Source: Trichosporon coremiiforme
Taxonomy: Eukaryota; Basidiomycota; Tremellomycetes; Trichosporonales; Trichosporonaceae
Length of the DNA: 64,000 bases
Direction: 5' to 3'
Assembly: GCA_039545355.1 (NCBI GenBank)
Contig: BCJJ01000010.1
Location: forward strand, 1,290,889 to 1,354,888
Below are positions 1,148-47,099 of the stretch, piece after piece. The notes below the pieces were generated by a model, which saw only the letters and a list, made by a program, of their open reading frames with translations, ran no database searches and was not told where the DNA came from. Position 1 is the stretch's first letter; the number at the start of each line of letters is the position of its first letter. The translations under genes were made by a program, and so were the position numbers.

Positions 1148-1405
1148 TGCTTTCGGTGAGCGGTATGCTTGATCGATCGAGCTCGAGCTTGGTAGAGCGT
1201 CCAAAAGAGCGCGAACATTGTCATTGTGTCCTGACTCGTTCATCGCACGTGGATATCGCGTGGCTGCCACAGGGGGCGAAATGCCGAAAGTCCGCCCAGC
1301 CTGGATGAGCGCCGGTCGCTGGGTGGTGCACCGCAGGTCGACGTTCAGCACGCTCGCTACGTACGTTGACCTCGACGATCACCGCCTAGACACCACTCAG
1401 ACATC
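1148..1405. promoter_or_regulatory. Divergent promoter spacer, GCD6 / NDUFA1
   Basis: These 258 bases separate two divergently transcribed start codons, so they must contain both promoters and both 5' leaders. I see no clear TATA box and no convincing coding sequence. Calling it a bidirectional promoter is inference from gene layout only. Confidence 0.5.
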
Positions 1406-2169
1406 ATGCCCGTTCCCTGGGAGGTGAGTTGCGCGGAGAGCAGGACGGGGCGGAGATGCTGACGGAATCACAGGCCCTTCTTCCTTTCGGTTAGTGACGC
1501 GCGAGCCCGAGTGACGTTTCGGAGCAATTGGATTGGTCGGCATGGACAACGGACAACTAACATGCAGGTCTCGTTACCGTCATGTTCGCCGCGACCGGCA
1601 CGCTCTTCAAGACCGTTAAGGAGTTCGAGAACGACTGGAAGGTGTGTTTGGCACGAGCGGCGCGCGTTTGTTGTTGTGCGATCGGGGATGGAATGTGGGA
1701 GCTGGGACCTGGAATCAACAGACGGGGCAATTCTCCGGCATACGAACCTGAGCCTGGATCGCAAGCTCGCGGCTGCATAGGGGCTGCTAGCAGGACTGGG
1801 AATCACAGAAGTGTGGGGAGGAAGGCAGGGAAGCAGCGGATCAGTGGAGGAACGACAACACGAACGCACGCCTTCAGTTTCAATTGAGTTGACGTTATGC
1901 TAACTCACATCAGCCTCCTCGCTACCACATCGACCCCTGGGAGCAGATGATGATGAACCGCGACAAGCGACTGACGGGATCGTTCCGTGGACAAACTGTG
2001 AGTGGAAACAGTGGTGGGCTGAGCAGCTATTTTGCTCGCAGGCACCGACACCTGCCTCGAGCGCCTCTAGCTTATGTGTTCGGACCACCGAAACTGACCT
2101 CAGACCAACCCGGTAGCCCCGAAGGAGTTCGCGACGAACTCGGAGTGGCAGACGGAGAAGATTATTTAA
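1406..2169 (+). CDS. NDUFA1: NADH:ubiquinone oxidoreductase MWFE-type subunit
   Basis: Small accessory subunit of mitochondrial complex I with one membrane helix in the inner membrane. The 85-residue protein is assembled from five exons that keep phase: 1406-1423, 1474-1489 (a 16-nt microexon), 1568-1641, 1914-1997 and 2104-2169. The product begins MPVPWEALLPFGLVTVMFAA, the family's hallmark N-terminus (MPVPFEALIP in other fungi), and continues with WEQMMMNRDKRLTGSFRG, matching the conserved matrix-side segment with two basic residues. It ends SEWQTEKII. Length agrees with fungal homologues (about 78-90 residues). No exon is long enough to be seen as a gene by ORF length alone, so it is easy to miss. 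Its presence implies a proton-pumping complex I, as expected for an obligately respiring basidiomycete yeast. Confidence 0.9.
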
Positions 2170-2548
2170 ACAACCAACACTGGACACAACCCAAAATGCA
2201 TAGGATTAGAGCCTCTAACAAAACGACAAAGGATGGGCGCGTGGGGTGAGCCGCACTCCGCTGATCTCATCAGCCGCAACACCCATCGACGCGGACGCAA
2301 CAGCAGGTGCCAGGGGAAAGGCATATATGCAGAAACAACAGAGGGTACAGAGAAATACATGTGGGGTCGGTCTGGGTGCGATTGCGGTCTGGAGCTCAGT
2401 CAATGTTGGGCGACGGAGCGAGCGTACCGATGTCGGGTGACGGCGCGAGCCTGGTCGGCGATGAGGAAAAGAGGGGCTCTGTATCCTCAGTAGAGGCGGT
2501 AGGCGAGGAAGAGGCGGGTACAGTTTCAACAGCGTTGGCGATAGCCTC
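2170..2548. other. Convergent intergenic spacer
   Basis: The space between the 3' ends of NDUFA1 and the GATA-factor gene. It should hold both 3' untranslated regions and polyadenylation signals. I see no gene, repeat or structured element in it. Confidence 0.6.
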
Positions 2549-4526
2549 CTAGGCGTTATCGCCCTCGCTCTCGATGACCCTGAGGAGGTCCATGATCGCG
2601 TCCGAGTCCTGCCCCTGTCCGAAGATTTCCATGAGGTCGACGGCTTCGCTGGGCGGACCGTTCGCGTCGTCGTCGAAGCTGAGGAAGAGGGACTCGAGGT
2701 CCGCTCCGTCGGTCGAGGGAGGGAGCGGCTCCAGTCCGAAGGGGAAGTGGAAGTCGAGCGGCTGCACTGTCTCTCCGTTCTCGCCTGGCGTAGGAGAGGT
2801 GCGCCCGTTCTGCTGCTGCGTCGGGTTCGTGTTGCGAGTTGAGCGGCGGGGAGAGGGCGATGGGGGAGGCTGACGCCGTGGGCTGCTCTTGCGTGTACGT
2901 TTCCGCGGGCTCTCGGGCGGAGGCTCCTCGTTGCGCACACGGTTGAGTCGGGGCGATGAGCGGACTGGAGGCGTGGCAGCAGCCGCGGACGATGCCGTGG
3001 CAGGCTTGGCCCACAGCTCGCGCGGACGCATCTTCTTGTGTTTGTTGAAGTACAGTCCACATTCTGTTGTCAGCTGTGTCGCTCGTCGCGGAAGCGGAGG
3101 GGACCTACCATTGCAGACTTGACACACTGGCCCGTCGCGAAGCTTCTTCGTCATCCACTGCTCGCTCTCGGTCGAAGCGCAATTGTAGCACTGCTCCGCT
3201 GGTGTCGGCGTCGGCGCCCAAGGGCTGCCGCTGCTGCTCGCCTGTGCAAGCACGGAGGCCGAAGCCGGTTTGTACTGCTGGGCAACCCGCTCGCTTCGTC
3301 TAGAGGGAGAGGGGGAGAGCATACCGCTGATTCCGTTTGCGCCCTTCGGTGATGGGCGGACGGGGCTCTTGCTCGGAGAGTCGGGCATGGCCTTGAGGAG
3401 CTTGGCGAGGAACGGGTTGTACGCGATCTTGGCCGCCATGTTGGGCGACACACGGCCCTGGTCCTTGAGGATGTTCATGAGCTGCGCTCTAGCAGGTGAT
3501 GGCGGTGGTGGTGTGCGTGGTCCAGCGCGAGGAGGGGTTGTTGTGTCCCGCGTTCTTGAGGGCTCGGGCTTAACAGTCGCGTTGCTGTTTACGCTAGAGA
3601 CGCTGTGTCGACTGGGAGACGACGCCGATCCGCTTGGTCCGCCAGGCGTCGATCGGGGCATTGTGCGCACATGTCGCAAAGGTGACGTGGGCTTCGGAGG
3701 GGGCGGGGGCGGTTTCGCAAACACGCCATTGTTTGCGTTCGAGGGGCGTGCAGGACTGCTCGAGACTGCTATCGGCGCAGAGGCCGTGGACTTTCCGCCG
3801 GCCAGCATCGACTCGAACGCCTGCCGGCCGGAGAATTCGCTCTTGCCTTCGGGGTTCAATTGACGCAGCGTCAGCGTCACCTCAAGCCCCCAGCCCTTGC
3901 CGTCACCCTCAGCCTCGGCGGCCGCAGCAGCAGCCATGAGCCCCTCGAGACCTCCGCCCTCCGAGAAGCACGTCGGCGAGAATTCGTACTCGCGCACGAG
4001 ACGGCCTCGCGCTAACGTGCTCCCACTTCCGCTCTCAGCCAGCGCCCACGAAAGGAAGCCCTTCCCTGCCCAGCTACTCGGGGCAGCGGGTCCTTGGAAA
4101 GTGCTCCGTGCGCCTGCTCGCGATGGGTCGAGGTTGTAGACGGAGAAGTCGAGCGATGAGCGTGTTGGCACGCATTCCGGGCTCATTGTCAGTTGCCAAC
4201 ACAACGGGTAAGCTCACCTGGCAAAGCAGATGCCTCGTGCCAGCGCCTTCAGCGCGCAGCTTCCCATCATGATACCCTGCGATGCGGGGTGCACGTAGAC
4301 ATCCTGCCTCTCCGGTAACACGGCAAGGTACGACTGGGGCGAAGTGTCGATGGTGTATAAGATTTTGACTGATGTTAGCTTCTCCGGGACACTGGAGCTC
4401 GTCGTCGGAGCAGCGGCGTCGGAGGGTGACACCAGCTGATGGTGTTGGTCGCCTCATCTCTGTGCCAGCCACCTCGATGGACTCACCAGGTAGGGCCTGT
4501 ATCTTGCCCGGCGCAGGAGCCGGCAT
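2549..4526 (-). CDS. Ams2/Spt21-like GATA-type zinc-finger transcription factor
   Basis: Predicted nuclear regulator. Exon 1 (4526-4487) encodes MPAPAPGKIQALP. After an intron ending CTAACATCAG at 4369, exon 2 gives VKILYTIDTSPQSYLAVLPE, then a 36-nt intron precedes SLDFSVYNLDPSR. This KVLYT...SPQ...DYSVY.LDP pattern is the N-terminal domain shared by fission-yeast Ams2 and budding-yeast Spt21, which control histone gene expression. A long Ser/Pro-rich middle follows. A GATA-like finger spans the intron at 3064-3108: CYNC at one side, CNECGLYFNKHKKMRPREL after splicing. The finger has SEQW where classic GATA fingers have TPxW, and the Cys-Cys spacing is slightly long. An acidic C-terminus (MEIFGQGQDSDAIMDLLRVI) could be an activation segment. 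The fused layout matches Ams2 better than Spt21, which lacks the finger. The histone-gene role is inferred from the family. Confidence 0.75.
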
Positions 4527-5174
4527 AGTGGGCGGTCCTAGTCGTGCGACTTCCTGTCCGTCGTCTGTTCGTCTGATGTGATAGGAGGCGAGATAGAGTT
4601 TGTCGTCTGGCCGTCGTATTGTTGTGCGGGCGGTCGCTCGGGGGCGAAAACAACAAAGTCATAAACGCAGCCGCGCAGTGGACTGCACGCGTTTGGCTGA
4701 GGCGAGGCGCGTCGCGGAGGCTTTTCGCACGTGGCGACGTCATTAAGGCTGGTTCGAGTGACCCTGCGTCGGCCTGGGTGGCCAATCTCGCGGTGCTTGC
4801 CGCGGCGCCCTTAGCACCGGATGCCGAGGGATGAAATTGCGGTGGTGTTCACATGAAGTGGTAGTGAGCTCAGCCCATAGTGGATAGAGGGGGAGAGAGA
4901 GTTGAAGAAAGAAGAAGAAGGCTCGTATGCATGGAACGCTGTGTGTCTTGGGTGTAATTTGGGCGCAGCGACTGGGCCGCCGGGTGCATCTCGGACCAGC
5001 CCACCGAGAACCGAGCCACCGAGCCAAGCTGGAGCCCCTGCCGCTTGCAATTACCCGATCTCCTCCATGTCCAGTCAGTCGCAGTGATCTATCTCCTCGA
5101 TTCCTCGTCCTTCCCCCTCCTTTCCAACCTTCCTCCATTTTTTTCACCCTCTAACGACACTAACGACCTGCACG
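4527..5174. promoter_or_regulatory. Divergent promoter spacer, GATA factor / PEX7
   Basis: About 650 bases between the start codons of the two divergent genes. The PEX7-proximal part is pyrimidine-rich on the plus strand (5100-5155, ending in a run of T before CACCCTC), typical of promoter and 5' leader sequence in GC-rich yeasts. No other gene is supported. Confidence 0.5.
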
Positions 5175-16184: not shown

Positions 16185-16268
16185 TGCCCTATGGCTCAGT
16201 TGGCTAGCGCGTGGAGCTGTTACTCTTAACATACTCCGAGGTCCACGGTTCGAGCCCGTGTGGGGCAG
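16185..16268 (+). tRNA. tRNA-Asn (anticodon GTT) with 10-nt intron
   Basis: A full cloverleaf can be drawn. The acceptor stem pairs TGCCCTA with TGGGGCA (T1-A72, one G-U). The D arm is GCTC/GCGC around AGTTGGCTA, with one weak pair. The anticodon stem pairs TGGAG (16212-16216) with CTCCG (16234-16238). The T arm is a perfect CACGG/CCGTG around TTCGAGC. The loop reads CT-GTT-A, then a 10-base intron (16223-16232) at the canonical position after base 37. A TTCTTTT run follows as RNA polymerase III terminator. CTT for Lys also occurs in this segment, but only the Asn reading gives good stems. The T1-A72 pair is unusual for tRNA-Asn. Confidence 0.85.
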
Positions 16269-17662: not shown

Positions 17663-19386
17663 ATGTCTTCGAACGATCACACTCCAGCGGCACTCTCACC
17701 ACCTGAGCCTGCCACGCTCCGCGGCTCGGTCACTTCCATCGAGAAGGAAGCCATCGTGTCGACCTCGCCCACGGTGGCGGATCTACCTGCGCTCGATGGT
17801 GACAAGAAAAGCATCTCCGATTCTCAAACCACTCACACGCCCGGCGAACAGCAGGACACCAACCTCGAGAAAGGTCTCGAAGGAGCCCAGCCTCTGAAGA
17901 GCAACGTGCTCTCGGAGATGGGCCCGGCGCGCAAGAACGTCCTCCTGTTCGGATTTGTGAGTATCAGCGTTCGCCCGTGAAGCCCCGCTGACCCCAGTGT
18001 CTTGCCATGTTCATTGATGCGGCAGGTGTCAGTGCCACTTTCTTGATGACGGAGCCGATCGCGGTCGACCTCGGCGTCAAGTATGCGGACTACGCCTGGG
18101 TTCTCGGCACGTACTCGCTCGCCTTTGCCGCAACCCTCCTCTTCGCCGGCCGACTCGCAGACCTCTACCCGCCAAACCAGATCTACTCGGTCGGTTTCCT
18201 CGGCATGGGTATCTTCTACCTGATCATCTCGTTCATGGACAACCAGTACGCTTTCTTCGTCCTGCGCGCGATCTCGGCACTGCTCGCGGTCCTCACCATC
18301 CCGAGCGCCATCAACATGATCATCCAGATGTACCCCGACCCACTGGAGCAGGCGAAGAAGATTGCGCTGTTCTCCCTCTCGGCCGCTCTCGCGAACACGA
18401 TTGCGCTCCTCCTCGCCGGCGTGTTCCTCCTCGCCAGCTGGCGGTGGTACTTCCGCTTCATCGCGATCCTCGTCATTCCCTTCTCCATCTTTGCTTGGTT
18501 CCTGATGCCGCACGCGCCTGCTGTCGCTGAGGACCTGGCGATGACCGAGAAGTGGAAGAGGATGGACCTCATCGGAGTCTTCCAGCTGCTCATGATCCTC
18601 GTTCTCTTCATCCTCGCCATGACTCAGGCTGTCGTCGATGGGTGGGGCAGCGCGATCTTCATCGCGCCATTCGTCATCGCGCTCGTCATGCTCCCCATCT
18701 TCCTGTTCTGGGAGCAGCGCCTGCCCCGTGGCTACAGCCTGCTGCCGCACGACCTGTGGCACTTCCCCAACATCTTCCCGCTCATGCTGCTCGCTACCTG
18801 CTGCTTCCTGTGGTTTGCGACGTTCCAACTCCGCGTCGCGACCTGGTTCCAGGAGGCGCTGCACAACAGCGCAATCCTGTCTGCCGTCAAGTTGCTGCCC
18901 ATGGGCATCACAGCACTCATCGTCGGCGGCGTCACGCAGGCTATCCCCTCCCTCTTCCTGCGCCCGCGCTACGTCATCCCAGTGTCCGCTGCGCTTGCCT
19001 TCACTGGCTCCATGCTCCTCGCATTCTCGAAAGGCGGCTTCGGCAAGGACTACTGGCGCTTCATCTTCCCTGGCGAGATCATCGGCACAGCCGGGGCCAT
19101 GATCATCTTCATCTCGGCCAACACGCTCATCATCCAAGCCTTCCCGCTCGAGTTCGCCGGCGTCGGAGGCTCATTCGCCAACGTCGTGTTCCAGATCGGA
19201 GGCGTCGTCGGTATCGCCATCCAGACTGCCCTGCTCGACACCGGCAGCGGACCTCTCGACTGGACAGGAAGCAAGAACGGTTTCCTCTTCACCTCGGCTT
19301 ACACTTTGTTCTGCGGCATCGTGTTTGGATTGTGGTACCGCCAGGAGAAGATGCCCGTCCACGAGGGTCCAGTCGTCGCGGCGTAG
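17663..19386 (+). CDS. MFS multidrug-type transporter, DHA2 (14-helix) family
   Basis: Plasma-membrane drug/proton antiporter type. Two exons, 17663-17956 and 17998-19386, keep phase and give 560 residues. A long hydrophilic N-terminus precedes the first helix at CLAMFIDAAGVSATFLMT. The helix 2-3 loop carries LFAGRLADLYPPNQIYSVGF, the MFS motif A (GxLaDrxGrk) in its DHA2 form. Helix 4-5 has FVLRAISALLAVLTIPSA and the helix-5 motif C-like segment LSAALANTIALLLAGVF. RWYFRFIAILVIPFSIFAWF and about eight further hydrophobic stretches bring the total to 14. The start was chosen at MSSNDHTPAAL; the in-frame ATG 72 bases upstream would add 24 residues. Substrate cannot be told from sequence. Its convergent neighbour is the microexon gene. 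Confidence 0.85.
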
Positions 19387-19721: not shown

Positions 19722-22056
19722 CTAGCGGCAGATCCAGCACAGCTCCCCCTGGTTCTCCCCAAGCTCTCCGTCAGGGTTCAGAGGTGGAAGATGGGGGCGC
19801 GGCTGAGGCTGGAAGTTTGGGAGAGAACCGCCTGGGGTTAGTTGATGCTGGACACAAGGCAACTGACCAGCAGTGGTGGGAAGATCGTCGCAGATGCGGA
19901 GAATGTCGGTGGGCCATTGCGCTGGCGTGAGCTCCTGACCCATCCACCGCCTACCATCTTCGATTGAGAGTGGCAGATGCGTTGCTGGGCTTAGCTTTCG
20001 TACTGCGCTACACATATCTTCGTTCACAGAGAGCAGCGCTGGCGTCAGCTCATCGTACCCTGCTCAGGCAGCGTACCTTCATCTGAGGAGGGTGCTGGGG
20101 GTCAGCCTAAGAACGCTGCACGATTCACGAAGCTTGCCGTTATAGTGGATCCACGAACCGTGCTGCGGTGTGACATCCGTCAGCGCTGGCGGAGGTGGGT
20201 GCACACCGTCCGGCTGACTCCGGATTGGCCGAAAACGTCAGTGTGCCCAGTGCCCGAGGTTAGCTAGCTTTGCTCTGAGCAGCTCACATGTCGTCAGCTC
20301 GAGCACTTCATGTGAGCTTACCAGCTTCGTCCGCATCGTGAAGTTTCCAATCGTGATCGAGCCGTGTCGTCTTGCTCGCAGAACAAACTGCAGTGAGCTC
20401 GAAGATTCCACGCCAGAAAAGCTCTCACCATCATCTGGGGTAGAACGCGTGGAGACTGCATGTCAGCTAGATGAAATGGAACGGGCAGTGTCAGCTTGCC
20501 GCTCAGCGTGTCGAAGCTCTCACCTGCTAACCGTGCCGCCTGGGATCAGCTTCACTTTCAAGGTGGAGGAAGCTCACGCGTCTGGATAGCAGTGGAGACG
20601 GGGTATGAGCTTGCCGACGTCCTGGCATGCCAGCTCTCACCATCGTCCGAGCCTGGGATCAGCTTGAACGACACCATTCAAGCTCTCACCGCTCTCTGCG
20701 CTCCCGGTTGGAGTCAGCTTCCGGCATTTCAATAGCGTACCTTGACCTGGTGTCAGCTAAGGTTACCGCTCATGTAGCGTACCATCTACCCCACCCGTCG
20801 CTGGGGGTCAGCTCGTCTTAGTGTGCCCAGCATACCTGGCGTTAGCTTGAAGAGGGCGATAGGCAGCTTGTCCGCACCATGAAACTCAAAGGCTGGGGTT
20901 AGCTCGACCGATACATTCTCAGCTCTCACCATTTACCCGCGTATCACGCGACGCTGAGGGTCAGCTTTCCGCACTGGGCGTAGCTCCCACCATCCTTTGT
21001 CCTAGCCGAGGCTGGACTCAGCTGTGCCCTCGAATCCGAAAGCCTACCTTCGTCTGGAGTCAGCTCTGGCAATTGATCGTTCAGCGTACCAGGCTCTTCA
21101 CCGGAGCGTGTCGCTGGAGGTCAGCTATATGAGGCACTTGTCTCAGTGTGGCTGGTGGGACGATCTTTGCCTAGCCTACCTGTCTCATCTCCGTTGCCGT
21201 CCCCTCGCCGGTTTCATTCGTGGCGGAGATCGAGGCTGGAGTTGAGCTTCAGGGTTTCCGTGACTAAGCTCACCCGTCTCATCCTTGTGGTCGGGGAGAG
21301 CTGGGGTCAGCTTTTGGTGAAAGGTCCGAACAGCATACTCGTCGCCTCGTCCGAAGCTAAGAGTCAGTTGGAACACTCTCAGCGACTTACCCGTCTCGTC
21401 CCCCTTAGGACCTGGGGTCAGCTTGACCTTGAGCAAGAAAGCTTAATGCTGCAGGTCTTGGTCGAGGCTGGGGTCAGCTTCATCTCCCGCAGTGGTAGCC
21501 TACCAGTCATAGCGCTGGGCGAGGCTGGGGTCAGCTCCTCGAGTAGCGAGCCAGCGTACCCCTCCTCTAGTCTTTTGTCAGCTCGATCAGCAGAAGAACT
21601 AGCTCACCCGTCTTGTCTGGTGGTCAGCTTGAACGAGGCTCAGTACACAGCATACCGCTCGCGACTGGGGGTCAGTTTTTCCGTCACGAGTGGTACAGCT
21701 TACGCCTGGCTCGGGTTGCGGAACTGGGGTCAGTTCTCGACCATAGATACTTCAGCATACTCGTGCTAGGCGGGGCTGGAATCAGCTAGGACCAAAGTCT
21801 GACAGCTCACCAGACGCTGTGGTCAGTTTCAGCAACGCCTAGTACAGCCTACCCGTCAATGACTGGGGTCAGCTCAGAGGACTACCGCGAAGCTGCTCAC
21901 CTTTGTTCGTCAACTCTCGTTACCTCTGGTGCTCGTGGCCGAGGTCGATGATGGACACTGAGGTCGGGTGTCGAGAGGGATGAGGTTGAAAGTAGGGAGT
22001 GAAGGGGGATGAGGAACAATAGTCAGAAGTCAGGATACCAGATATTGCCACGCCAT
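19722..22056 (-). CDS. Hyper-fragmented microexon gene, unknown product
   Basis: On the minus strand about 33 candidate introns follow one another, nearly all 33-45 nt. Donors are GTGAGCT, GTACGCT, GTATGCT, GTAGGCT or GTAAGCT; acceptors are GCTGACCCCAG or close variants. The exons between them are mostly 6-27 nt. The 3' part can be solved in one frame: 20455-20429, 20387-20322, 20213-20138, 20094-20077, 20038-19955, 19921-19868 and 19831-19722. It reads through SPRVLPQMM, FVLRARRHGSITIGNFTM, PPPPALTDVTPQHGSWIHYN, AQWPTDILRICDDL and ends GELCWICR. One intron (20137-20095) uses a GC donor. Upstream exons are clear as splice units but their phase is not fully solved, and the ATG at 22056 (MAWQYL) is a guess. 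No family is recognised. The minus-strand direction is fixed by the splice sites. Confidence 0.65.
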
Positions 22057-22645
22057 GGTCGACGTGGACGTGTACCGGCGAGGCGAGGTGCGTGCGAGGA
22101 GGAGACACACACGTTGTCAGCCTTGTAAGTGCTGGACCCCTAATCTCCCTTCGTGTGACTTGAAAGCTTGGCCAGGCGAGCTGGGTGCGAAGTGCAGCTT
22201 GCTACGCTGGGCAGCACACAGCTGATGCGACTCTGACCGTCGGCGGCAGAAGTGGGTGAGTCAGCTGTGGTCTTGTAAGACTTCGGGCCGACAGGGTCAA
22301 TCAATGTTCATCAGTCTTTGCCTAGCGCTTGACCTGACATGGCCGCCAGCTGCTACCAGGGAATCTCAATGGTGAGTATGTCGGAATCGAGCTGAGGTGG
22401 CAGCGGGCTGGCTCCTACCCCGAAGCGTGGCCGGGCGCAGTCGGAGTGCTCGTCCAAATTCCGCTGCTCGTGTGCTAGCTGCACGCGGGTACCCAGGCCC
22501 CGCGCACATGGCTGGGCACGACAGAGCAGTTTAGATCAGTGACAGTTAGTTGTCTGTCACCCGTTGTTCACCAGTGTTCGCTTTTCGCTTCTGATATACA
22601 TGATGCCTCCCTATATTCTCCCATAGGACCCCCTATCGCGCAGTC
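22057..22645. other. Spacer, possible 5' end of the microexon gene
   Basis: Lies between the 3' end of the phospholipase gene and the putative start of the microexon gene. On the minus strand it has further isolated donor- and acceptor-like sites (for example CAGCTGACTCACC near 22260), so the microexon gene may start farther upstream than annotated. No independent gene is visible. Confidence 0.4.
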
Positions 22646-23080
22646 TTAAGAGCAAGTGCAGTGCTTGGCTGTCCTCTTCATGAAAGCCGAGTCACCTCCG
22701 ACGGCGACGCCGGTGTGGTACGTGGCCGCGCCAGCAAGACACGCCGCCTTGGCGGGGGCCTCGTACCACTTGTCGTAGTTGGTGTTGCACACGTTCTTCA
22801 TGCAGGCGTAGAACGAGTCATCACAGTCGCGCTTCGTGCGGTTACACGTCGAGTAGCAGATGTCGTGCTGGTTGCAGCAGCCCTTGAACTTGCCGTCCGG
22901 CACGCCCGAGCACCCGTTCTGGTCCGGCGCGACGCCCTTCGACTTGGCTGTCTGGCCCGAGGGACAGCGAGAGGGATACCCGCGCGCTTCAAGGTTGGTC
23001 AAGGACAGAGAGCGGTCGGCGGGAGGCAGCGCAAAGGCGACACCGAAGACGGTGATCGGGAGGAGGAGCGAGAGTTTCAT
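22646..23080 (-). CDS. Secreted phospholipase A2-like protein
   Basis: Predicted extracellular calcium-dependent phospholipase A2, releasing the sn-2 fatty acid from phospholipids. Intronless, 144 residues. The start ATG is 23080-23078; residues 1-17 (MKLSLLLPITVFGVAFA) are a signal peptide and the following segment ends in a dibasic-like AR before GYPSRCPSGQTAK, which may be a propeptide junction. The signature GCCNQHDICYSTC contains the paired cysteines and the catalytic His-Asp of secretory PLA2 (CCxxHDxCY), and DGKFKGC may form part of the calcium loop. Downstream CDDSFYACMKNVC matches the second helix with its cysteines and Asp. The C-terminus is AKHCTCS. Many fungi carry such enzymes for nutrition or signalling; its actual role is unknown. 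Confidence 0.85.
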   Translation of the reverse strand: MKLSLLLPITVFGVAFALPPADRSLSLTNLEARGYPSRCPSGQTAKSKGVAPDQNGCSGVPDGKFKGCCNQHDICYSTCNRTKRDCDDSFYACMKNVCNTNYDKWYEAPAKAACLAGAATYHTGVAVGGDSAFMKRTAKHCTCS

Positions 23081-24719
23081 CGTTGGCGGCTGGGGGATGC
23101 GCTTGCCGGATGGGCGCCGAGATGAGATGGCCAAGGTCGTCGAGAGCCAGAGGATACTCCTGTCGTCGTTGTGATTCACCTCAGCTCCATCCGCAGCTTT
23201 ATATCTCTCTCATGTCGGCGAGCAGCCCACTGCATCCTTTGCTTGGCATCCCTTTCGCAAAGTCATGTGCGTGCGGAACATGGTGCACCGCACGGCTCGC
23301 CGTGCATGTCAAGGTCCGGGGCTGTTCATCAGCAGGTAATTCGCCGTACTGAATTGGGAGCGACTGAATTGCACAGAGATGAGCCGAGTGGAGGCGCAAG
23401 CTTGCTTCGGTGCATGCACATGGCTGCGTAACACATGGGTCTCGTAAGTCGCTCACCAGAGTTCTGCTGTGGTGAGCTCGGGGTTCGACAGCGTGACGCA
23501 TCAGCTGACGGCAGGTCCACAGGGAAGCGGAATGGAAGCGAGCAGCGAGCAGCGAGGCAGACCTATGGAGCCCGCCCATGGAGCTTGGAGCGCGCTCGTC
23601 GGAAGGTCGCCGAAGTGGGGCCTCCCTCGTTCGCTAGCTTCGAAGTAGGTCTGTAGGTCGCCGCGTGGTCCGATGGGAAGGCCGAACAAAGTTGGGTAAT
23701 CTTATCAACGTGTGATTCCCATCCGCAGGGCCCCATTGGCGGCCGCTAAACTTCAGAGCACTGGAACTCGATCATAAGACCAGTGTGACAAGGCAGCACA
23801 GACGGAAGAGCGCGGAGTGAGAAGACGAGCGTAACGCTGTGATCACGTTCGCTGAGGTCCCCCCCCCCGGGCGAGTGGAACGAGGTACGCACCATGGTGC
23901 GGAGCACGGGCTTCCTGAAGAACAGAAAGACGGGGGACCTCAACGAAAAGAAGCAAAGGAACGTCCGGGGTACACTCACCGCTCAGCGTTCAGTTACCAA
24001 GGACAATCCAAAACAGGTTCTCACACTTTCCCGCCGCCTATTGCTAACCTCACTCACACCTCAGCGGGCATCAGTAGGACACAAGCGCACGTGCAGAAAG
24101 TCGGGCTTGAAACGTGCTGCATGCTTCCTGCAGCTTACGGGCGATGGACAGAGATCGGTGTGATGGATGGAAGGGAACTCCGGCATCGCGTGGAACAGCC
24201 GGTGGCTCCGTGATGCCGGAATCGCCGGCCGAGCCAAACAACTCCGTACTCCGTCCCTCACGACCGACCACGGATACCCGGCCATTTCAACAACAGCCTT
24301 TGGTAATCATGCTCAAACTCCAACTCTCTCCTCTGCAAGCTATGCATAGAACGCGCTTCGGAAGTAAGCATGCGCATCCGTTGCCTTTGCTTACATGAGG
24401 TCTCCAGGGCAGCTTGGGGCTTGGCTCATGTGCGGTGCGCTGTGATTCGCCCGGTGCCCCGAGAACTCCAATGGGCGCTACGGCCCTAGCTGCCAGCCTT
24501 TGCTGGCATTCGCCTAGCGCCGTGCTACTTGTGTCTAAGCATGTTATTGCTTGCGGAGCGAATTACCTCGCAATTGCTCGCGAATTGCACCGATCAGAAA
24601 GCGCCGAATGAACTCGGCCATGACCAAGTGCTCGTCGGAAAGACCTGTTGAGATCATGGGCGTTCGTCTATTCCTGTCACTCTGCATTCTTTTCGTCCTG
24701 GATCACCCCCCTCTCTCCG

Positions 24720-24767
<48 letters not shown>

Positions 24768-33793: not shown

Positions 33794-34738
33794 CTAGAAC
33801 ATGCCCACGCTGAGCCCGACAGCAATCCTCATCCCGGCCTCCCTGCACTTCTCCTTGTCCTCCTCGTTGATCTCCTTGAGGGCGTACACTCTCTCCTCAG
33901 ACTGGGCCTTGACATTGACGATGACAGTCTCCTCGACCTTCTTCAGCCGCCAACCCGTGGCTATCCGCTCCAGCTGCTTGGCAGCGCCCGCACCGTCGGA
34001 CCCGGCGCAGATCAGAGCCTGGTACGGCCGCCCGTTCAAACGATGCAGCACCGGGTAGAAGCACCGGTCGAAGAAGTCCTTCATTGGTCCACTCATGGCT
34101 GCGAGGTTCTCGGGACAGACGAACAGGTAGCCACTGGCTGTGAGGAGGTCCACGGGGCCGGCGAGCGGTGCGGGCAGTATTCTGATATCGACGTGTCCCT
34201 CGTCTTCAGCTTGGGGATTCTCAGCGGCTGCAGAACTTGTCTCGGAAGACGAGGCGCCCGAGGAGGCTGAAGAGGAAGAGGAAGAGGAAGAGGAAGAGGA
34301 CGGGTCGGAGCCCGCGGGGCCGGAAATCACCCCCGACTTTGATGATGCAGAGATATCCGGACGACTCGCTGATGAGTTGACCGAATCGGGATTCGGTCCT
34401 GTGGACGCCGAGAGCCCTGCGGGGGCGCGGAACTCCGTTGTGCTCCAGCACGCTTGCAGATCTGGGACCTCTTCGGTCGAGCGTTCAAGACCCTCGAGGG
34501 CGCCCCGCACGGCTTCCGCTGCCATCTGCGCTGCTCCGCCTGTTCGTGAGTGGTACACGACGAGCAACGTTCGTCTGTCCCCATGAGCCTTGCTCCAGGC
34601 GTCAACTTGTTCGTCGACGGCCGCCTTGGCTGCGGCCCATTCGCTTGATCGTCTCACTGCATGCCGTATCGGACGACGAGATAGGAGAGTTGGCCGGAGT
34701 CGAGACGGCGAAGACGGCAGAGACGGGAGACGGAACAT
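33794..34738 (-). CDS. Flavodoxin-fold (FMN reductase-like) protein
   Basis: Predicted FMN-binding protein of the flavodoxin / NADPH-dependent FMN reductase superfamily, 314 residues, one exon. The N-terminus (MFRLPSLPSSPSRLRPTLLS with many Arg) looks like a mitochondrial targeting peptide. LLVVYHSRTGGAAQMAAEAV is the first strand and phosphate-binding loop (S-x-T-G-x). After a Ser/Asp-rich low-complexity insert of about 75 residues the fold resumes with ILPAPLAGPVDLLTASGYLF, then CPENLAAMSGPMKDFFDRCF, the P-x-x-x-x-x-x-x-x-K.f.DR.f motif of FMN reductases, and GRPYQALICAGSDGAGAAKQ. The C-terminal helix ends AGMRIAVGLSVGMF. The Ser run is encoded by an imperfect GAAGAG repeat near 34266-34305 (plus strand). 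Physiological substrate unknown. Confidence 0.75.
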   Translation of the reverse strand: MFRLPSLPSSPSRLRPTLLSRRPIRHAVRRSSEWAAAKAAVDEQVDAWSKAHGDRRTLLVVYHSRTGGAAQMAAEAVRGALEGLERSTEEVPDLQACWSTTEFRAPAGLSASTGPNPDSVNSSASRPDISASSKSGVISGPAGSDPSSSSSSSSSSSASSGASSSETSSAAAENPQAEDEGHVDIRILPAPLAGPVDLLTASGYLFVCPENLAAMSGPMKDFFDRCFYPVLHRLNGRPYQALICAGSDGAGAAKQLERIATGWRLKKVEETVIVNVKAQSEERVYALKEINEEDKEKCREAGMRIAVGLSVGMF

Positions 34739-36206
34739 TGTGCCGTGAGTTGTGGGCCGTGTGGGGCGAGGAGGATGGTGCAGATGAGTGAGCGGAAGTG
34801 CGCCTCCGCTAGACGGAGATTCCGGGGAGGACGTCCGCTGACGTATGCATGAGCTTGGCCTGTATGGTGAAAGCTACCCCACACTCGGATCCCTGCGTAA
34901 CGGCGCATAACTCGGCCTCTCGGTAATTTCATCCCACAGTAGTCTGCCATTCCTTGAATTACCCGTGCCCAGGATGTTAAAGGTTGCTCAGGTTGCTCAG
35001 GTAGCTCAGGCCCAGCCATTGTATCTATCTTGTCCGAGCCGTGTCCCGTGCCGTGCGCCTGAGGCGTGCGGTCCAGCCGTGTGTCTGTCTGATTCTATTG
35101 TTTGCTGAATCGGATGCACCCAGAAATCGTTGGCGCGACAGAACTCGAATGCACAGACTGTTGGAACACGACAAGGGGGGGCCGAAAGAAAGAAGCAAGG
35201 TGTGCGTGTACCTTGCCCACACGTTGGGGAGTTTGCGTGGCCCACGGAGGAATGAACATGTGACCACAGTGTTACTTGGGGCAGAGCTGGCCATTACACT
35301 CTCGGCTAATGCCTGGCTAATCGTGCCTTGTACGTTGAAGGGCGCGCGTTATGCTGGGGGGCGGTCTGGGCGTTGTTTCTTGCACCCAGGAACAGCAAGG
35401 GCGTGCACTGTTCGAGGGCAACGGAAGCACGCCGCCATGCATCCGCAGCCACGAGCGACGACGAGTGACTGCGATAGGACGACGAGGGAGCAGGGAGCAC
35501 GCAGACCTAAGAAAGCAAGAGCCGGGGCAATCTCCGTTGAGTCGGAAAACTCCACGGCAGGAGGAATAGCGTCGTGATGGTCCTGATGGGCGCGCCCAGT
35601 GACGGACCGGGCGGATATCGTGGCCCCATCGCTGGTGCTGTCCAATCCCCGCCCACCGATACCAGACACCCAGCGCCCGGACCGCCCACGCGTGATGCGG
35701 GGTACCGCGGGGTAGCGTCAGAAGCGCCTCCTTGCGCCGACAGCTGGCCGCTATCATCCACCGGGCGTCCGTGATATCTTTGCGGGGCAAGGTGTAAGGC
35801 AGCGCTGGGCGGACTGGGCGAGCTCGGCGAGCTGGGCGTCAGATCCAACGCACGCGCACGCACACGGAACAGCGAGTGTCTGCAGGCAGGCGGCCGGCGA
35901 TATAAAGTATAAAGGACGCGCACCGCACGAGTCAAGACGCGCCAGGAATCCCAGAGTTCTCACGCCTGCCCTTCACCCAACTGCGACTGTGACTGCGACT
36001 GCTTGCTCGTTACAGCACTCAGCGGCAATTGCATACCCTTTCCTCCGGTCTTCTGCCCGACGCTTCCCCCACCGCGACGACCCTCAGTTCACCAAGCCGG
36101 CCACCCCTCGATCCTTCCCCTGTATCGACACCCGCTACCTGTATCTTAGCACTTAGACGCTCCTAAACTCACATTCTTCCCCATCCATCCATCCATCCAT
36201 CCCACC
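34739..36206. other. Divergent spacer, flavodoxin-like gene / DIC1
   Basis: About 1.47 kb between divergent start codons. It holds both promoters. The DIC1-proximal 250 bases are CT-rich and contain a TATA-like GATATAAAGTATAAAGG at 35898, and a (CATC)n/(ATCC)n run lies directly before the start codon. No other gene is supported. Confidence 0.5.
36182..36202. repeat. (ATCC)n microsatellite in DIC1 5' leader
   Basis: Five tandem ATCC units immediately upstream of the DIC1 ATG at 36207. Likely transcribed in the 5' leader; no effect can be inferred. Confidence 0.8.
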
Positions 36207-37854
36207 ATGAGCTTAGAGAAGACCGCCGTCGCTGCCGGCATCCCGCCTTCCGCCCCCGTCGTCAAGAAGCCTTACCCCTTCTGGCTCGGAGGTGAGTCAC
36301 CCAACACTCGCGGACACACCGCACGGACGGACTAGAGCTGACAGCAAAGGTGTCGCCGCATCCATTGCCGGTGCCACCACCCACCCCCTCGACCTCACCA
36401 AGGTCCGTCTCCAGGTCACGGGCGAGAAGCACATGATCAATGAGATCAAGAAGACTGTTCAGACTTACGGTGAGTACGCTACTGCGTTGTCGGCCTCCGC
36501 GACGCACGGCTGCGCGGAACGCCGCGCTGCCCACGTCTGCAGACAGACAGGTGGGCGGCCCGGCCGCGTGCCTGCGCTTTCGGCGCTGCATGCGCTGGAC
36601 GCTCGGACTCGCCCACACTGGCTCAGCGAGCGGCCCGGCGACCTCCGTTGCATCCCGAACAGCTCAACCCGTCCCTCCGATTACAGCTGACTTCCAGGCA
36701 TCCGAGGACTCTACGACGGACTGACGGGAACGCTGCTCCGACAGATGACCTACTCGATGATGCGATTCGCGGCGTACGACCAGGTCAAGGGCCTGATGCA
36801 CCAGGGTGAGTCTTTCCCCAGCCTTCTCCGCGATCGCGATCAACACGAGGCGTGCGGCTTCGTGGGCAGCTGTTCGCTTGTAGGCGCTGCCGCTGCCGGT
36901 GCCGCACGCAGCCGCACGCCCTGACCTGAGTCAAATGGATTCAGCAGGGAGACTTGCGGGGCACGCCCACCGCGAGTCTTCGGGTGAAGCCGAGCATCCG
37001 CTGCCGGAGTTCCTTATCGCTCCCTTGCGTGCTTGCCCCTGTTGCGGCACTGCGGCTGCGGCCTGAGCTTCGGCTCTGATCGCCCTCGGCCCTACCTTAC
37101 TGTTGTGTGCTCCCCGCACGGTGCCGGCGGCATTGCGCTCGCCCCACTCCTCCGCTGTTCGACAAGCACCAGTTAACGCGCAGACGCCGGCCCTCCCCCC
37201 GCGTGGAAGATGGGTGTCGCCGGTTCCATCGCCGGAGGTATCGCGGGCACGCTCGGCAACCCTGCCGAGCTCATGATGGTGCGCATGCAGGCCGACCGTG
37301 CCAAGCCGCCAGCTCAGCGCTACAACTACCGCAACTCGGTCCAGGGTCTGTACCGCATGGCCGTTGACGAGGGTATCGCCTCGTGGTTCCGTGGTGTTGG
37401 TCCCAACGCTCTCCGCTCCGTCCTCATGAACGCTTCCCAGCTCGGTGCCTACGATTGGTTCAAGTCCCAGCTCCAGCACTTCATGCAGGACGGCCCCGCT
37501 CTCCACTTCCTCGCCTCGTTCGGTGCCGGTACCTTCGCCACGACTGTCTGCTCGCCCGCCGACGTCCTCAAGTCCCGTATCATGAACGCGTCCAACAATG
37601 AGGGCGTCGCCCAGGTCCTCAAGAACGGTCTCGCCAAGGACGGACCCCTCTTCCTCTTCAAGGGATGGACCCCTGCATGGATTCGTCTTACCCCGACGAC
37701 CATTCTTATCTGTGAGTAAGCGAGCAAGCGACGCGCGCCGCGCGGAGCAGCGCAGCTTCTCAGATTGATGCAAAGCTGACACCCAGTCCTCACCCTCGAG
37801 CAGCTCAAGGCCGGTGTCGACCGCTACCGCAAGGCCGGCGGCACCCTCCTCTAA
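36207..37854 (+). CDS. DIC1: Mitochondrial dicarboxylate carrier
   Basis: Inner-membrane carrier of the SLC25 family exchanging malate or succinate for phosphate. Five exons keep phase: 36207-36291, 36350-36469, 36698-36805, 37184-37711 and 37787-37854, giving 302 residues. The three carrier repeats each carry the PxDxxKxR-type signature: HPLDLTKVRLQV in repeat 1, NPAELMMVRMQADRAKPPAQ in repeat 2 and SPADVLKSRIMNAS in repeat 3. Matching second halves are GIRGLYDGLTGTLLRQMTYS, GIASWFRGVGPNALRSVLMN and GPLFLFKGWTPAWIRLTPTT. NPAELMMVRMQAD and the RQMTYSMMRF contact residues are characteristic of DIC carriers rather than oxoglutarate carriers. The third intron is 378 nt, unusually long here. The last exon ends FLTLEQLKAGVDRYRK. 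Confidence 0.93.
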
Positions 37855-40167
37855 GCGCACCCCCAAGCCGCCTAAGTCGAGGAACTCCCACCCTCACCCT
37901 AAATCTAGCAAACGACCCCGGCGAAACTGTAGAAACGGCCTCATTTGGTTTATGGATGATCCTTATGTGTACGCGGGGCGAGCTGCTAGGTCCGCCTGAT
38001 TACGGCTCGAATAACTGACTTCTGACAGTACTTGGGGAGGGGTTAGCTGACATCGTCGGACTAGGGGCTCGACGAGGGCAGGGGTTAGATGGTCTGACTG
38101 CCGCGCGGAGTGCTCGACCGGCAATCTGATGGAGTATACGCGCCCTGATACTCTCGGTATGCCGGACTCCTCTGCACAAGCTGGCGATATCCCCTCCCCC
38201 AGATCTTACACAGGCTGACGACGTACGCACTGGGCAACAAGCAACGGAACGGATGACGCTCACAATAGCCCGTCGGTGTGCTCTCGATGGGAGCTTCTCA
38301 CAGTCATGCAAGGCGGACTGGCCCTCTTAAGCCGCGCTCTCTCGGACGTCTCACGTCCACCATCTCGCCCTGGCCACTCCTTCGCCGCTGAAAGCTTTGC
38401 AATTCTACGACCCACACTTCGGTGTTCGCAGACAACAGTCTTTCCGCTCGGCTGGGGTACAGCCTGAGAACACGCCCACAGCGACACGACTACCAATTGG
38501 GCGGTGCTCAGACCTCGACCCACCTCTCTAGCCTCTTACGTCTTCTGGTCTCCTCGGGCGCTCGATGGCTCACCGCCTAATCAACCTCCTTCTCGAAAGG
38601 GAGTGGGGAACAGACCCGTTCCTTACACCATCGCATAAGCGACACACTATAAATGAGGATGATTCGGCAGCCTTGGACCATCGGCAGGGAAGGGCGAAGC
38701 TCTGTTAACCAAGCTGGGGAGGCGGCGGGTACGTGCATACGAGTCACCGGGTAGCACATTGAAGGACTGGGGATGTGACTTCCTCCACACGCCTGATACC
38801 TCGTGGTCCACGACCTGATGCACTATGCGACCATGCTGATGCACACATCCAGCACCTCCCACGAGGCTGATGTACTCGCACTCCTCTCGCGCTCTCAGCG
38901 GAACCTTCTCACCTTCCAGCAGCGCCGACCCACCGCTGTACTGACAATAGGCTTCTGACGTTCTTCCATCCACCACTCACCTCAGTCACTCCTTCAAGCT
39001 TCGTCCCCTTCGTGTCCTGGTAAGATAGACGCCTGTGCAAGCTACCTGACCTCAGCACCCTCCCCCTCTTCCTCTGCCGGGTGCGCAGCGCAGGGGTGAT
39101 TCGGCACAATGCGATTTCATCAGCAGACCTTCTAGCCCCGACACTCCTCTGCCCGCCCTGCGCGCCTTGACAGCCACGGGTGCCCACGCCATTGCATCAG
39201 CGGTCATCCAAATGATCCCGGGCTGTCTCCTCTCCCTCCCCGCACGCCCCCACGTTTGCCAGCCAACACCTCCCCCTCCCCTTCGACGCCTCCAGGTCAT
39301 TTACGCCATTGCATGAGCGACACTTTCTTACCTATGATGAACCAGTTGGCAAACTCGGACGTCGAGCTTCGCTGGCGGTACCGGGCATATCCTCATTGCA
39401 TGAACGAATCAGCGCTCTCCCCGGGCTGCCCGCATGCGGGTCTACGTGCGCGTTTGAATCGGCATGACGAGCCGTGCACCCGCACTTCTGGCTGGCTGGC
39501 AGACACGGCACACGACGCAGGACACTTTACACCGACCACCCGATTCTCCTCCCCGCTGCACTCCAGCTTCGACCACAGTCACTCACACTCCTTTTCTCTG
39601 TTCACGTAGGCGGCATTTATCCATTGAATGAGCGTACTGAGCATCCCCGCCGCGTTGTATGCATTATGCTACTTTTCCTACTTGTGCAGGCTGGCATCTA
39701 CTCGAGAGCGTGGGAGGCACTGACGCATGGCTTCGCCAGTCCCAGGCTGTGGTGAGCGATGAGCGAGCAAGCTGTCATCCGGGCTCCTAAACTTCTGCTT
39801 GACAGATAGCCAGGCGTACGCTTGCAGAGTGTGAGACAGAGCGCGACTCCGAGTCGCTGATTGACAACGGAGATCTGAGCGGCGTGTGGCACACACGGTG
39901 CGGGGGGTGCGGCGGAATCTCGCTCCCCCATCAGGCTGGCGAGTCAATCTAGTCCAGCCACCGTCAACTCCATCCGCTGTGGATGCAAGTTATCTCGGCG
40001 GGGTGGCGAAGCTTCCCGTCACCTGGTGAACACCTCTGTCTTCCTCTGGTCCATCATCCATCACCAGCAGGCCGTGCTCACCTGACCACTGCGTCATCAA
40101 CACATCCCCCACCTCCTATTAGCTCACCACCAACCCATCTCTGTTGAAACCAACCCCAACAACCATC
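37855..40167. other. Intergenic stretch with a degenerate 20-25 bp repeated motif
   Basis: About 2.3 kb. No gene is supported on either strand. Between 38620 and 39640 a motif close to ACGCCATTGCATGAGCGACAC recurs five times in the same orientation (near 38625, 39186, 39302, 39389 and 39617), imperfectly and at irregular spacing. The final 60 bases before 40168 (CT- and AAC-rich) look like a leader. It may be an old duplicated region or the remains of a gene. Confidence 0.45.
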
Positions 40168-45222: not shown

Positions 45223-46254
45223 GCACTCGCTCGCGCAACTGCTCGCCTTCCATACCGTAGCCACCAAGTCCCTGCTCACACTTCGAACCCCCACTTTTTA
45301 CATTACTTTCCCCATCCCCCTCCCTCCCACCGAACTTCCGCAAAGTGGACCACCGTCCTTCGCCTCCACCGCCTTTCGTTTCGTAAAACCTGTAAATGCT
45401 TTATCAATTCAGCATGCATGCGCCAAGCACAGTGAGTAGTAATAAGCATCTGAAGCACCTCTCTGATGCATGCATTGTGCACCCAATGAGGGGCCAGGGA
45501 GTGGTGGGAGCGTGTGAGCGGTGAGCAGAGGTGGAGAGATCTCTGATGAACAACGGCGTGGTCATGAGCGCAGTCTGGCACGTCGTGGGTAGGTCGTAGT
45601 CAGTGCTACCCGGCAGTAAGGGGTCTGGAGCGTCTGCTCACGCTCAATTCGGAGGTGGATAGGCGTGCAACAAAAGAGCGAGTCTGTCCAGTGAAGTTGG
45701 CTTGCCTCGGCCAACTCGATCGGGAGTGATCGAGCAGCAGCGCCAGCGACAGCTCGCCAAGGCTCACCACACATTTTGCCCGCACTAACAAACGTCCACC
45801 GATCTCAGCGCAGTCCGGAACATGCTCGCGCTTCTCGCCTATCTTGTCTTGGGCACAGCTGAGCAGCTGTCAAGCCCCGGTCCGGTCTTAGGACTGCGAC
45901 TCAGACAGCCGAGTGAGACATTGACACTCGTACCTGGTGTGGCACGGAGGGAGCGAGCGACTCCCAACGATTCACCGTCGTCCAACGAGCGAGAGGGCGA
46001 CGATCCTGGAGTGAGGTGGCCAGGCTCGGGAGACGGCGTCAGCTCTTACGGACTGTGTGGGGATCGAGGCTGGCGAGGGTGGTGCTGTGCGTGAGTGCGG
46101 TAGTGCGAGAACGCGAAGACAGGAGGGCGGCTAGTCGGCGGTGAGCGCTTGGGATGGGGGTGTACTCGGTGTCGCCTGTCCTTGACGCCTCTTCACAGCA
46201 TCCTTCCTATTCCTCACAACTCCCCATCTCTCCTCCTCTCAACTTCTCACCACT
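45223..46254. other. Intergenic spacer
   Basis: About 1 kb between cluster gene D and the intron-dense leader of gene E. One 90-codon open frame at 45822 (MLALLAYLVLGTAEQLS) has no support beyond its length. The region near 46190-46250 is CT-rich and probably the promoter of gene E. Confidence 0.4.
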
Positions 46255-47099
46255 TCAGTCTCGACGACCAATTCGTGACGGCCTCAGTCCCACGATCAAC
46301 CTGGTGAGCTGTCGGAGTTGGTCGAAGCTGGCATCAGAATCCACTCTGAACTTCGACGACCATCCTCGAATCATCGCCAACAACGTCCACAAGTGTTCAA
46401 TCGCCTTGGTAAGCTGCCATCTTCTTTGACCTAGCTGACTCCAGACTCCCTCGCCACCTCCCAATCGTCACTCGCTGACCACACAGCCAGGGCAAATCGA
46501 CGAGGTGCCATTTCGATCCTGCAGTGAGTTGATGTACCGCCTGGACCCAACTGACAGCGCAGTCCTCCTGGTGAGCTGGTCGAAGATGTCGTCAAGCTGA
46601 CTTGCAGCCTCTCATACTACACGCAGTTCGAAACCGGCAAGGAGCACACACGCGACAGCAAGGTAGGCACTGCATGAAACGTGACCCATAAGCTTAGCCA
46701 GCTCGTTCAATCTCTACCCCACCGCGCTCGTTGAGCACCCTCCGGAGAGCATAAGTGAGCTTGACGCTCGTCGCTGATAGATGACGACCAGGTCTACGGA
46801 CAGGTTCTCGCCCCCGTGAGCTGGTCACAGATAAGCTGGAGGAAAGTCCCAGTGGCTGACGACCAGTCCCGCACACAGCCTGCGATACCTGTCGTGAGCT
46901 TCTTCCGCTACGGCACTCAAGCTGACTCGCAGTCCCAGGTGCCAACACCCGCAGTGCCTCACCTCCGCATCTCGTGAGCCGTGAACACATTGCTGGCAAG
47001 CTGACATCCAGTCTCCCCCCTCCCCCTTAAGCCCCATTCTCGGACGAGTACCGAGAGACAAGCAGTGAGCTACCACGAGCTGCGGAGCTGACCCAGACC
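46255..47099 (+). other. Intron-dense leader: ten tiny introns before gene E
   Basis: Ten candidate introns in under 800 bases: 46304-46337, 46409-46444, 46524-46562, 46571-46607, 46663-46701, 46755-46780, 46816-46846, 46894-46932, 46974-47011 and 47065-47096, lengths 26-39 nt. Most start GTGAGCT, GTAAGCT or GTAGGC and end in an AGCTGAC-type branch plus AG. Exons are 8-79 nt. From 46338 to gene E one frame stays open through nine joins (FNLYPTALVEHPPESINDDQ is typical), but no ATG lies in it and the first join would create TGA. So it is either a spliced 5' leader or an N-terminal extension whose start I cannot find. The grammar matches the minus-strand gene at 19.7-22.1 kb. Confidence 0.6.

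Follow-up and report, generated by a model that had tools for sequence, protein, structure and literature searches.

A candidate microexon gene with ultra-short introns in the yeast Trichosporon coremiiforme

The window analysed here is a stretch of 64,000 nucleotides on contig C10 of T. coremiiforme. On its minus strand, from 21900 to 19711, inspection of the sequence found splice donors in alternation with branch and acceptor motifs. What kind of locus is divided into such small pieces, and do the pieces make a protein? On balance we favour a protein-coding gene on the minus strand. Its front would consist of about 25-30 microexons, mostly multiples of three in length and mostly separated by phase-1 introns, and it would close with a conserved C-terminal end.

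Splice signals of the array

A hand-made splice scorer chained 33 introns over 21900-19711, in line with the figure of about 33 in a first-pass annotation of this DNA. Thirty of them are 33-44 nt long, and the median intron of the array is 37 nt. Internal exons of 30 nt or less make up 25/32, one of them having a length of zero. Because this scorer had been tuned while viewing the array itself, a weight matrix was built from 341 other introns, which the hand scorer had first picked in 12 further arrays and in ten sampled 5-kb stretches, with none from the window array. At thresholds of 8, 10, 12 and 14 the matrix found 27, 27, 25 and 22 introns in the array, compared with means of 5.2, 2.8, 1.8 and 0.8 (maxima 10, 5, 5 and 4) in 20 Markov simulations, and 18, 8, 5 and 2 on the opposite strand of the array. 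With 27 introns against a simulated mean of 2.8 and a maximum of 5, a chance origin of the signals is ruled out, and the alternation of donors and acceptors reported earlier is confirmed over the whole interval. That a matrix trained elsewhere recovers 27 introns also supports the earlier view that these are introns of spliceosomal type lying between microexons. Across the whole window, 27 minus-strand introns have a hand score above 5.5, and 21 of these are inside the array; three Markov versions of one window strand gave 1-3 introns above that score.

The microexon array at 20322-21900 (minus strand) has 25 introns of 34-68 nt. Of the 24 exons between them, 18 are a multiple of three (one of length zero) and 20 measure 6-27 nt, the size range first proposed for most exons. 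In the hand-scorer chain the first bases of these introns are 21900, 21852, 21810, 21760, 21703, 21655, 21607, 21559, 21503, 21390, 21338, 21273, 21179, 21089, 21047, 20990, 20929, 20877, 20835, 20782, 20740, 20689, 20577, 20523 and 20428. Two introns of the chain, 20877-20836 and 20835-20801, abut, with an exon of length zero between them (AG, then directly GT). Other zero-length exons are located at 5237-5170 in locus L011, the copy of this gene on contig C9 (junction 5204/5203), and at one place each in L015, L019 and L020. They could be recursive splice sites. Beyond the array the chain has an 18-nt exon, 20094-20077, and an intron, 20076-20039. Two adjacent similar exons by pairwise alignment, 20038-20014 and 19984-19955, come next; the former is read longer here than in the chain, where it has 11 nt. 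The conserved C-terminal coding part (19722-19921) comprises exon 19921-19868, intron 19867-19832 and the last exon, which starts at 19831 and ends with the TAG at 19724-19722. Several junctions of the array do not have a GT-AG pair.

The introns appear to be of a type ordinary for this genome. The array and introns from other parts of the genome share a donor, a CTRAY branch and an AG at short distance. Across the 42.0-Mb genome the pattern GTRNGCT-N10-36-AGCTGACNNCAG occurs 1619 times and its reversed form 4 times; a tandem pattern of acceptor, exon of 30 nt or less, donor and branch has 94 matches compared with 0. A carrier-like gene adjoining the C9 copy has, by eye, introns with the same branch/acceptor motif. 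The array introns look like the genome's own short spliceosomal introns. Their donors have a base other than A at +4 in 15/29 cases. At the same threshold the share is 10-27% in eight other arrays; background introns give 7/52, though that count used a stricter cut-off and a scorer in which A at +4 raises the score. A non-A at this position could mean weaker, regulated sites.

Coding signature and the copy on C9

From the lengths, phase and GC content of its exons and from its alignment with the C9 copy, the array looks protein-coding in origin. In the hand-scorer chain, 19/23 exons of 60 nt or less are a multiple of three (p 1.7e-6), one of them having zero length, compared with 67/249 in the 12 other arrays by the same method. 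The matrix gave 16/20, 16/20, 14/17 and 13/16 at its four thresholds (p 2.5e-5 to 1.2e-4), and 73/251 in the other arrays compared with 16/20 here. Intron lengths displayed no clear bias to multiples of three (13/29). Stops counted by incoming phase 0, 1 and 2 number 7, 4 and 16. Phase 1 is thus the poorest in stops and, given the exon lengths, most exons fit a start at codon position 2. Exon GC is 0.592 and intron GC 0.522, and ordinary loci have 0.603 and 0.540 (28 exons). A purine excess at codon position 1 (0.67-0.70) was discounted as coding evidence, since the G at exon ends occupies that position. When translated in phase 1, the front of the array is of low complexity and rich in Thr, Ala, Ser and Asp.

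The last seven exons had been read as one open frame. This reading holds for the last three, from 19984 to the TAG, and fails for the seven, because the exon starting at 20038 changes the frame with the donors found. In the 3' part, 34 codons aligned to the C9 copy (a small sample, with the letters around the frame break of that copy left out) have a dN of 0.19 and a dS of 0.82, and the differences fall 6/6/14 on the three codon positions. The conserved C-terminal segments of this alignment are WxxDILRIC..LP and SLPxFQPQPRxxLPPL. Our guess for the conserved segment is a docking motif that terminates a disordered tail.

A DNA search of the genome with the array gene returned, beside the window itself, only C9:1376986-1377134, a 71% match to the 3' part; at the sensitivity of the DNA searches used, this C9 copy is the only paralogue. 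It is much poorer in introns, with 8 in a free chain and 9 in a frame-constrained model over about 0.9 kb. One of its acceptors has no AG, and its frame shifts before the last exon. By eye it has an ATG followed by a hydrophobic stretch, which is not common to the window copy. The two copies align as DNA with a score of 253, compared with 72-109 in 20 base shuffles, which also destroy the shared splice motifs. The last part aligns locally as protein with a score of 140, for which the phase-1 reading was chosen first, breaks were given as X and no shuffle baseline exists.

The surroundings are partly shared. A block at 22058-22123 (minus strand), a putative conserved promoter or leader, is common to the C9 copy at L011 5762-5827. 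BLASTN matches the two at 76% across 67 columns (E 8e-5), and the global alignment has 86% across 21 nt. An MFS transporter gene at 18007-19386 on the plus strand (Pfam PF07690, E 4e-29) is common to the C9 locus, with 91% DNA identity over 346 bases in L011. The upstream neighbour, outside the array gene, is a group XII secretory phospholipase A2-like gene at 22646-23080 on the minus strand (a longer frame, 22646-23179, matches Pfam PF06951 at E 2e-12), and upstream of it the plus strand has a run of 47 C at 24720-24766. On C9 the upstream neighbour differs, since the L011 region matches window 34388-37971 at 82.6%. This block (L011 6361-9901) has a carrier-like gene, by eye, and is 83% identical between C10 and C9. 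It is located 12 kb from the array gene on C10 and directly adjoins it on C9, which by sequence position is a rearrangement. A hybrid genome is our inference, with the duplicated region among its grounds. Flanking or duplicated blocks of C10 and C9 are 83-91% identical at the DNA level, and the array gene has BLASTN islands of 71-76% alone; it therefore evolves much faster.

These observations suggest how such a gene would work. Ultra-short introns with the genome's normal branch/acceptor signal would separate the microexons, and in the frame with the fewest stops the microexons would mostly be entered at codon position 2, through phase-1 introns. Because most exons are frame-neutral, duplication, loss or skipping of an exon-intron unit would leave the C-terminal segment undisturbed, and the front could therefore evolve fast as a tail of low complexity in which Thr, Ala, Ser and Asp abound. 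The last exons would be held by purifying selection while this tail, probably disordered, varies. That variable exon use makes many protein variants, as proposed in the first-pass annotation, is at this point a hypothesis only. Growth of the array by unit duplication may have left one trace: exons 20038-20014 and 19984-19955 align with a score of 3.0, reached by 0.4% of 5000 shuffles in a single post hoc test, and are a possible tandem duplication of an exon-intron unit that is single in the C9 copy. The introns retain no such trace: two cores from the array resemble each other no more than cores of different arrays or shuffled ones do.

A reading that overlaps with this one accepts the coding gene and differs only on exon skipping and its use. 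Splicing would be constitutive, the isoforms would have no function, and the intron density would be a neutral build-up in an intron-rich lineage. We consider this plausible, although we lean against it. It agrees with the 1619 genome-wide matches to the intron pattern and with Cryptococcus neoformans, which is called the most intron-rich fungus with reliable annotation and averages 5.7 introns per gene (PMC5851062). The same review gives an average intron of 65 nt for Cryptococcus, with introns also in transcripts of no obvious coding potential. Like the genes of that genus, the array gene has short introns and many of them, but about 30 of median 37 nt are packed here into 2.2 kb. Mostly symmetric exons of a single phase would be unexpected from random gain, and the non-A donors, if they do mark regulated sites, would also speak against it.

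Frame breaks and other intron arrays

Does the gene still work? The spliced chain has no exceptional open frame. Its longest frame, 104 codons, is reached by 71.5% of exon-order shuffles and 58.5% of base shuffles. In exons that are a multiple of three, codon position 3 is not GC-rich (0.62-0.63 compared with 0.81-0.91 in four reference frames of the window). GC by codon position was obtained for six reference frames; the two outside these four, 26967+ and 51921+, share sequence with quoted frames on the opposite strand and have their GC maximum at position 1. Of the four stops remaining in phase 1, one is avoidable by means of a nearby acceptor, one is located in a stretch dependent on a weak GC donor, and 20282-20138 holds the other two. 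The phase-1 frame is broken by a 56-nt exon at 21180-21235 (chain, frame model and stop count) and, further along the window copy, by an acceptor reading CAA, by a 16-nt exon and by the stretch 20321-20095. In this last stretch acceptors are lost or weak, a 76-nt exon has a stop in all three phases, and neither the chain nor the frame model found a clean splice solution. Its first part was aligned, by eye, to two abutting introns of the C9 copy.

The start is affected too. A leader, 21901-22056, is located upstream of the first intron, and the ATG at 22056 taken earlier as the start opens only 8 codons before a stop and does not lead into the array; a model from this ATG needs an extra intron of 81 nt, with a score of -1.3, to stay open. 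Read by eye, the phase-1 frame has its first ATG in exon 21524-21504, so the microexons upstream of it could be untranslated.

With frame and acceptor breaks in both copies, one or both may be losing function, and the array gene may be decaying. The full form of this explanation is a pseudogene in progress. An ancestral microexon gene would have become redundant after hybridisation or duplication, acceptors and frame would have been lost in both copies, and no protein would be made now. Besides the breaks, the missing AGs in both copies, the unexceptional frame and the low GC at codon position 3 speak for it, and loss of genes following hybridisation is on record for Trichosporon hybrids, two of which, with three relatives, have RNA-seq (PMC6642101). 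Most junctions, however, keep strong signals (the 21 array introns above 5.5), 19/23 exons are still a multiple of three, and the last 34 codons are under constraint, though constraint reflects the past. Partial decay is the strongest rival to a coding microexon gene; that the gene makes no protein now we regard as unlikely.

The array is not unique in the genome. Twelve other regions, L012-L023 (L012 at 1247-5092), picked from the 94 tandem-pattern matches, have 10-39 such introns on one strand, counted above a score of 5.5. They are distributed over contigs C1, C5, C7, C9, C12, C14, C17, C29, C31 and C37, with introns of about 36 nt, tiny exons and no bias to multiples of three. As background, the 20 strands of the ten sampled 5-kb stretches have at most 6 introns per 2.3 kb. 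In 9/12 other arrays the GC of exons and introns differs by less than 0.03; the outliers, as exon minus intron GC, are L018 (-0.094), L020 (+0.035) and L023 (+0.038). Their spliced chains contained no exceptional open frame, the nearest being that of L018, reached by 7% of exon-order shuffles. They are possibly non-coding transcripts. The window itself has, at 46154-48242 on the plus strand, an intron-dense gene model with 9 introns in about 0.7 kb, followed by a long exon with a His/Asn/Gly-rich repeat.

Two of these regions, L014 and L018, adjoin the same gene (cofilin-like by eye), and their flanks are 81% identical over 655 columns. Their arrays have 26 and 12 introns and align with a best local score of 60, compared with a maximum of 30 in 30 shuffles; this weak alignment is partly owed to shared splice motifs. 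DNA searches with the arrays of L012, L014 and L019 for homeologs returned self matches only, and L018 emerged as the partner of L014 through the flanking sequence.

The window array could accordingly be one more non-coding, intron-dense transcript with a short coding or formerly coding 3' end. The 12 other loci have introns of the same type at high density, no bias to multiples of three (67/249) and, in nine cases, a gap of less than 0.03 between exon and intron GC. The exon-length test and the exon versus intron GC set the window array apart from them, and we hold this explanation to be improbable. The window array thus has several counterparts, but among the 13 arrays it alone bears a coding signature. 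That nothing is spliced, and that recurring GTNNGCT and AGCTGAC (AGCT being palindromic) are protein-binding or structural DNA motifs mimicking splice sites, is hardly credible, since the acceptor/branch motif equals that of introns in the neighbouring carrier-like gene (by eye) and the exon lengths fit splicing of a coding gene.

Known systems and wider reading

Tandem Repeats Finder placed no array between 19722 and 22056, so a tandem satellite was rejected. Among 20 of 30 families, a repeat search gave short repeats of splice motifs and longer stretches matching a reference copy at about 60-84%. Pfam searches with four pieces of the two copies, including the conserved C-terminal segment, had no match up to E 1, and the antisense frame of 207 aa at 21146-21769 had no Pfam match. 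Known RNA families, searched in 14 sequence sources at gathering score, gave one tRNA at 16185-16268 and nothing else. No protein homologue of the array gene was among 308 candidates; this negative is weak because the same database yielded only 3 relatives of the neighbouring phospholipase A2 at E 1e-10 or better. Introner-like elements are many near-identical introns, and the array introns, with cores unrelated to each other, are neither introners nor intron copies. Intron multiplication by introner-like elements of fungi is described as one route to intron-dense genes (PMC4457414).

The likeness to schistosome microexon genes (MEGs) and aphid bicycle genes suggested by the first-pass annotation is real for the exon layout alone, that is, exons mostly a multiple of three and mostly of one phase. 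MEGs are described as having many consecutive microexons of 6-81 bp, mostly multiples of three, with few conserved motifs, introns of 0.1-5 kb and proteins that carry a signal peptide (PMC10526429). Like MEGs, the array gene has its coding sequence mainly in microexons that are mostly a multiple of three. Unlike them, it has introns of median 37 nt; the MEG signal peptide is N-terminal, and in the window copy no start codon is established. It also belongs to a different kingdom, and the likeness is one of layout, with no sequence kinship apparent. The family motif of bicycle genes is a paired Cys-Tyr-Cys, and there is no CYC in the phase-1 translations of the array. Bicycle genes form a large family, whereas one gene and one homeolog were found here, with no secretion signal established. 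In bicycle genes the many small internal exons almost all start at codon position 2 (PMC9168663). The prevailing exon phase of the array is the same, with several breaks.

Among fungi, Xlr2 of Trichoderma virens, a transcription factor, has a microexon switch; the 2024 paper on it states that functional microexons were previously undescribed in filamentous fungi and that fungal experimental tests existed only in Schizosaccharomyces pombe (PMC11121469). Xlr2 is a fungal case of a functional microexon, but of a single switch-like one and not of an array. In literature on microexon genes in fungi or Trichosporon, with most subscription journals outside the search, no such yeast gene was found.

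A wider reading would place the gene in a genome-wide class of microexon-array loci, with introns of about 36 nt and exons of about 10-30 nt over kilobases, most of them non-coding. From one homeologous contig to the other such arrays would stay at the same place while little of their sequence is conserved, as in the L014/L018 pair. The window gene would be the coding member, in which selection has turned the units frame-neutral and made the array an in-frame generator of a protein tail. This reading is tentative, and we would call it rather doubtful.

If spliced as read, the locus would give fungi a counterpart to the single-phase microexon genes of flatworms and aphids, with very short introns. 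With two homeologs so unequal in intron number within one genome, intron gain and loss, and how far splicing can go with exons of zero to nine bases, could then be put to a direct test in a fungus.
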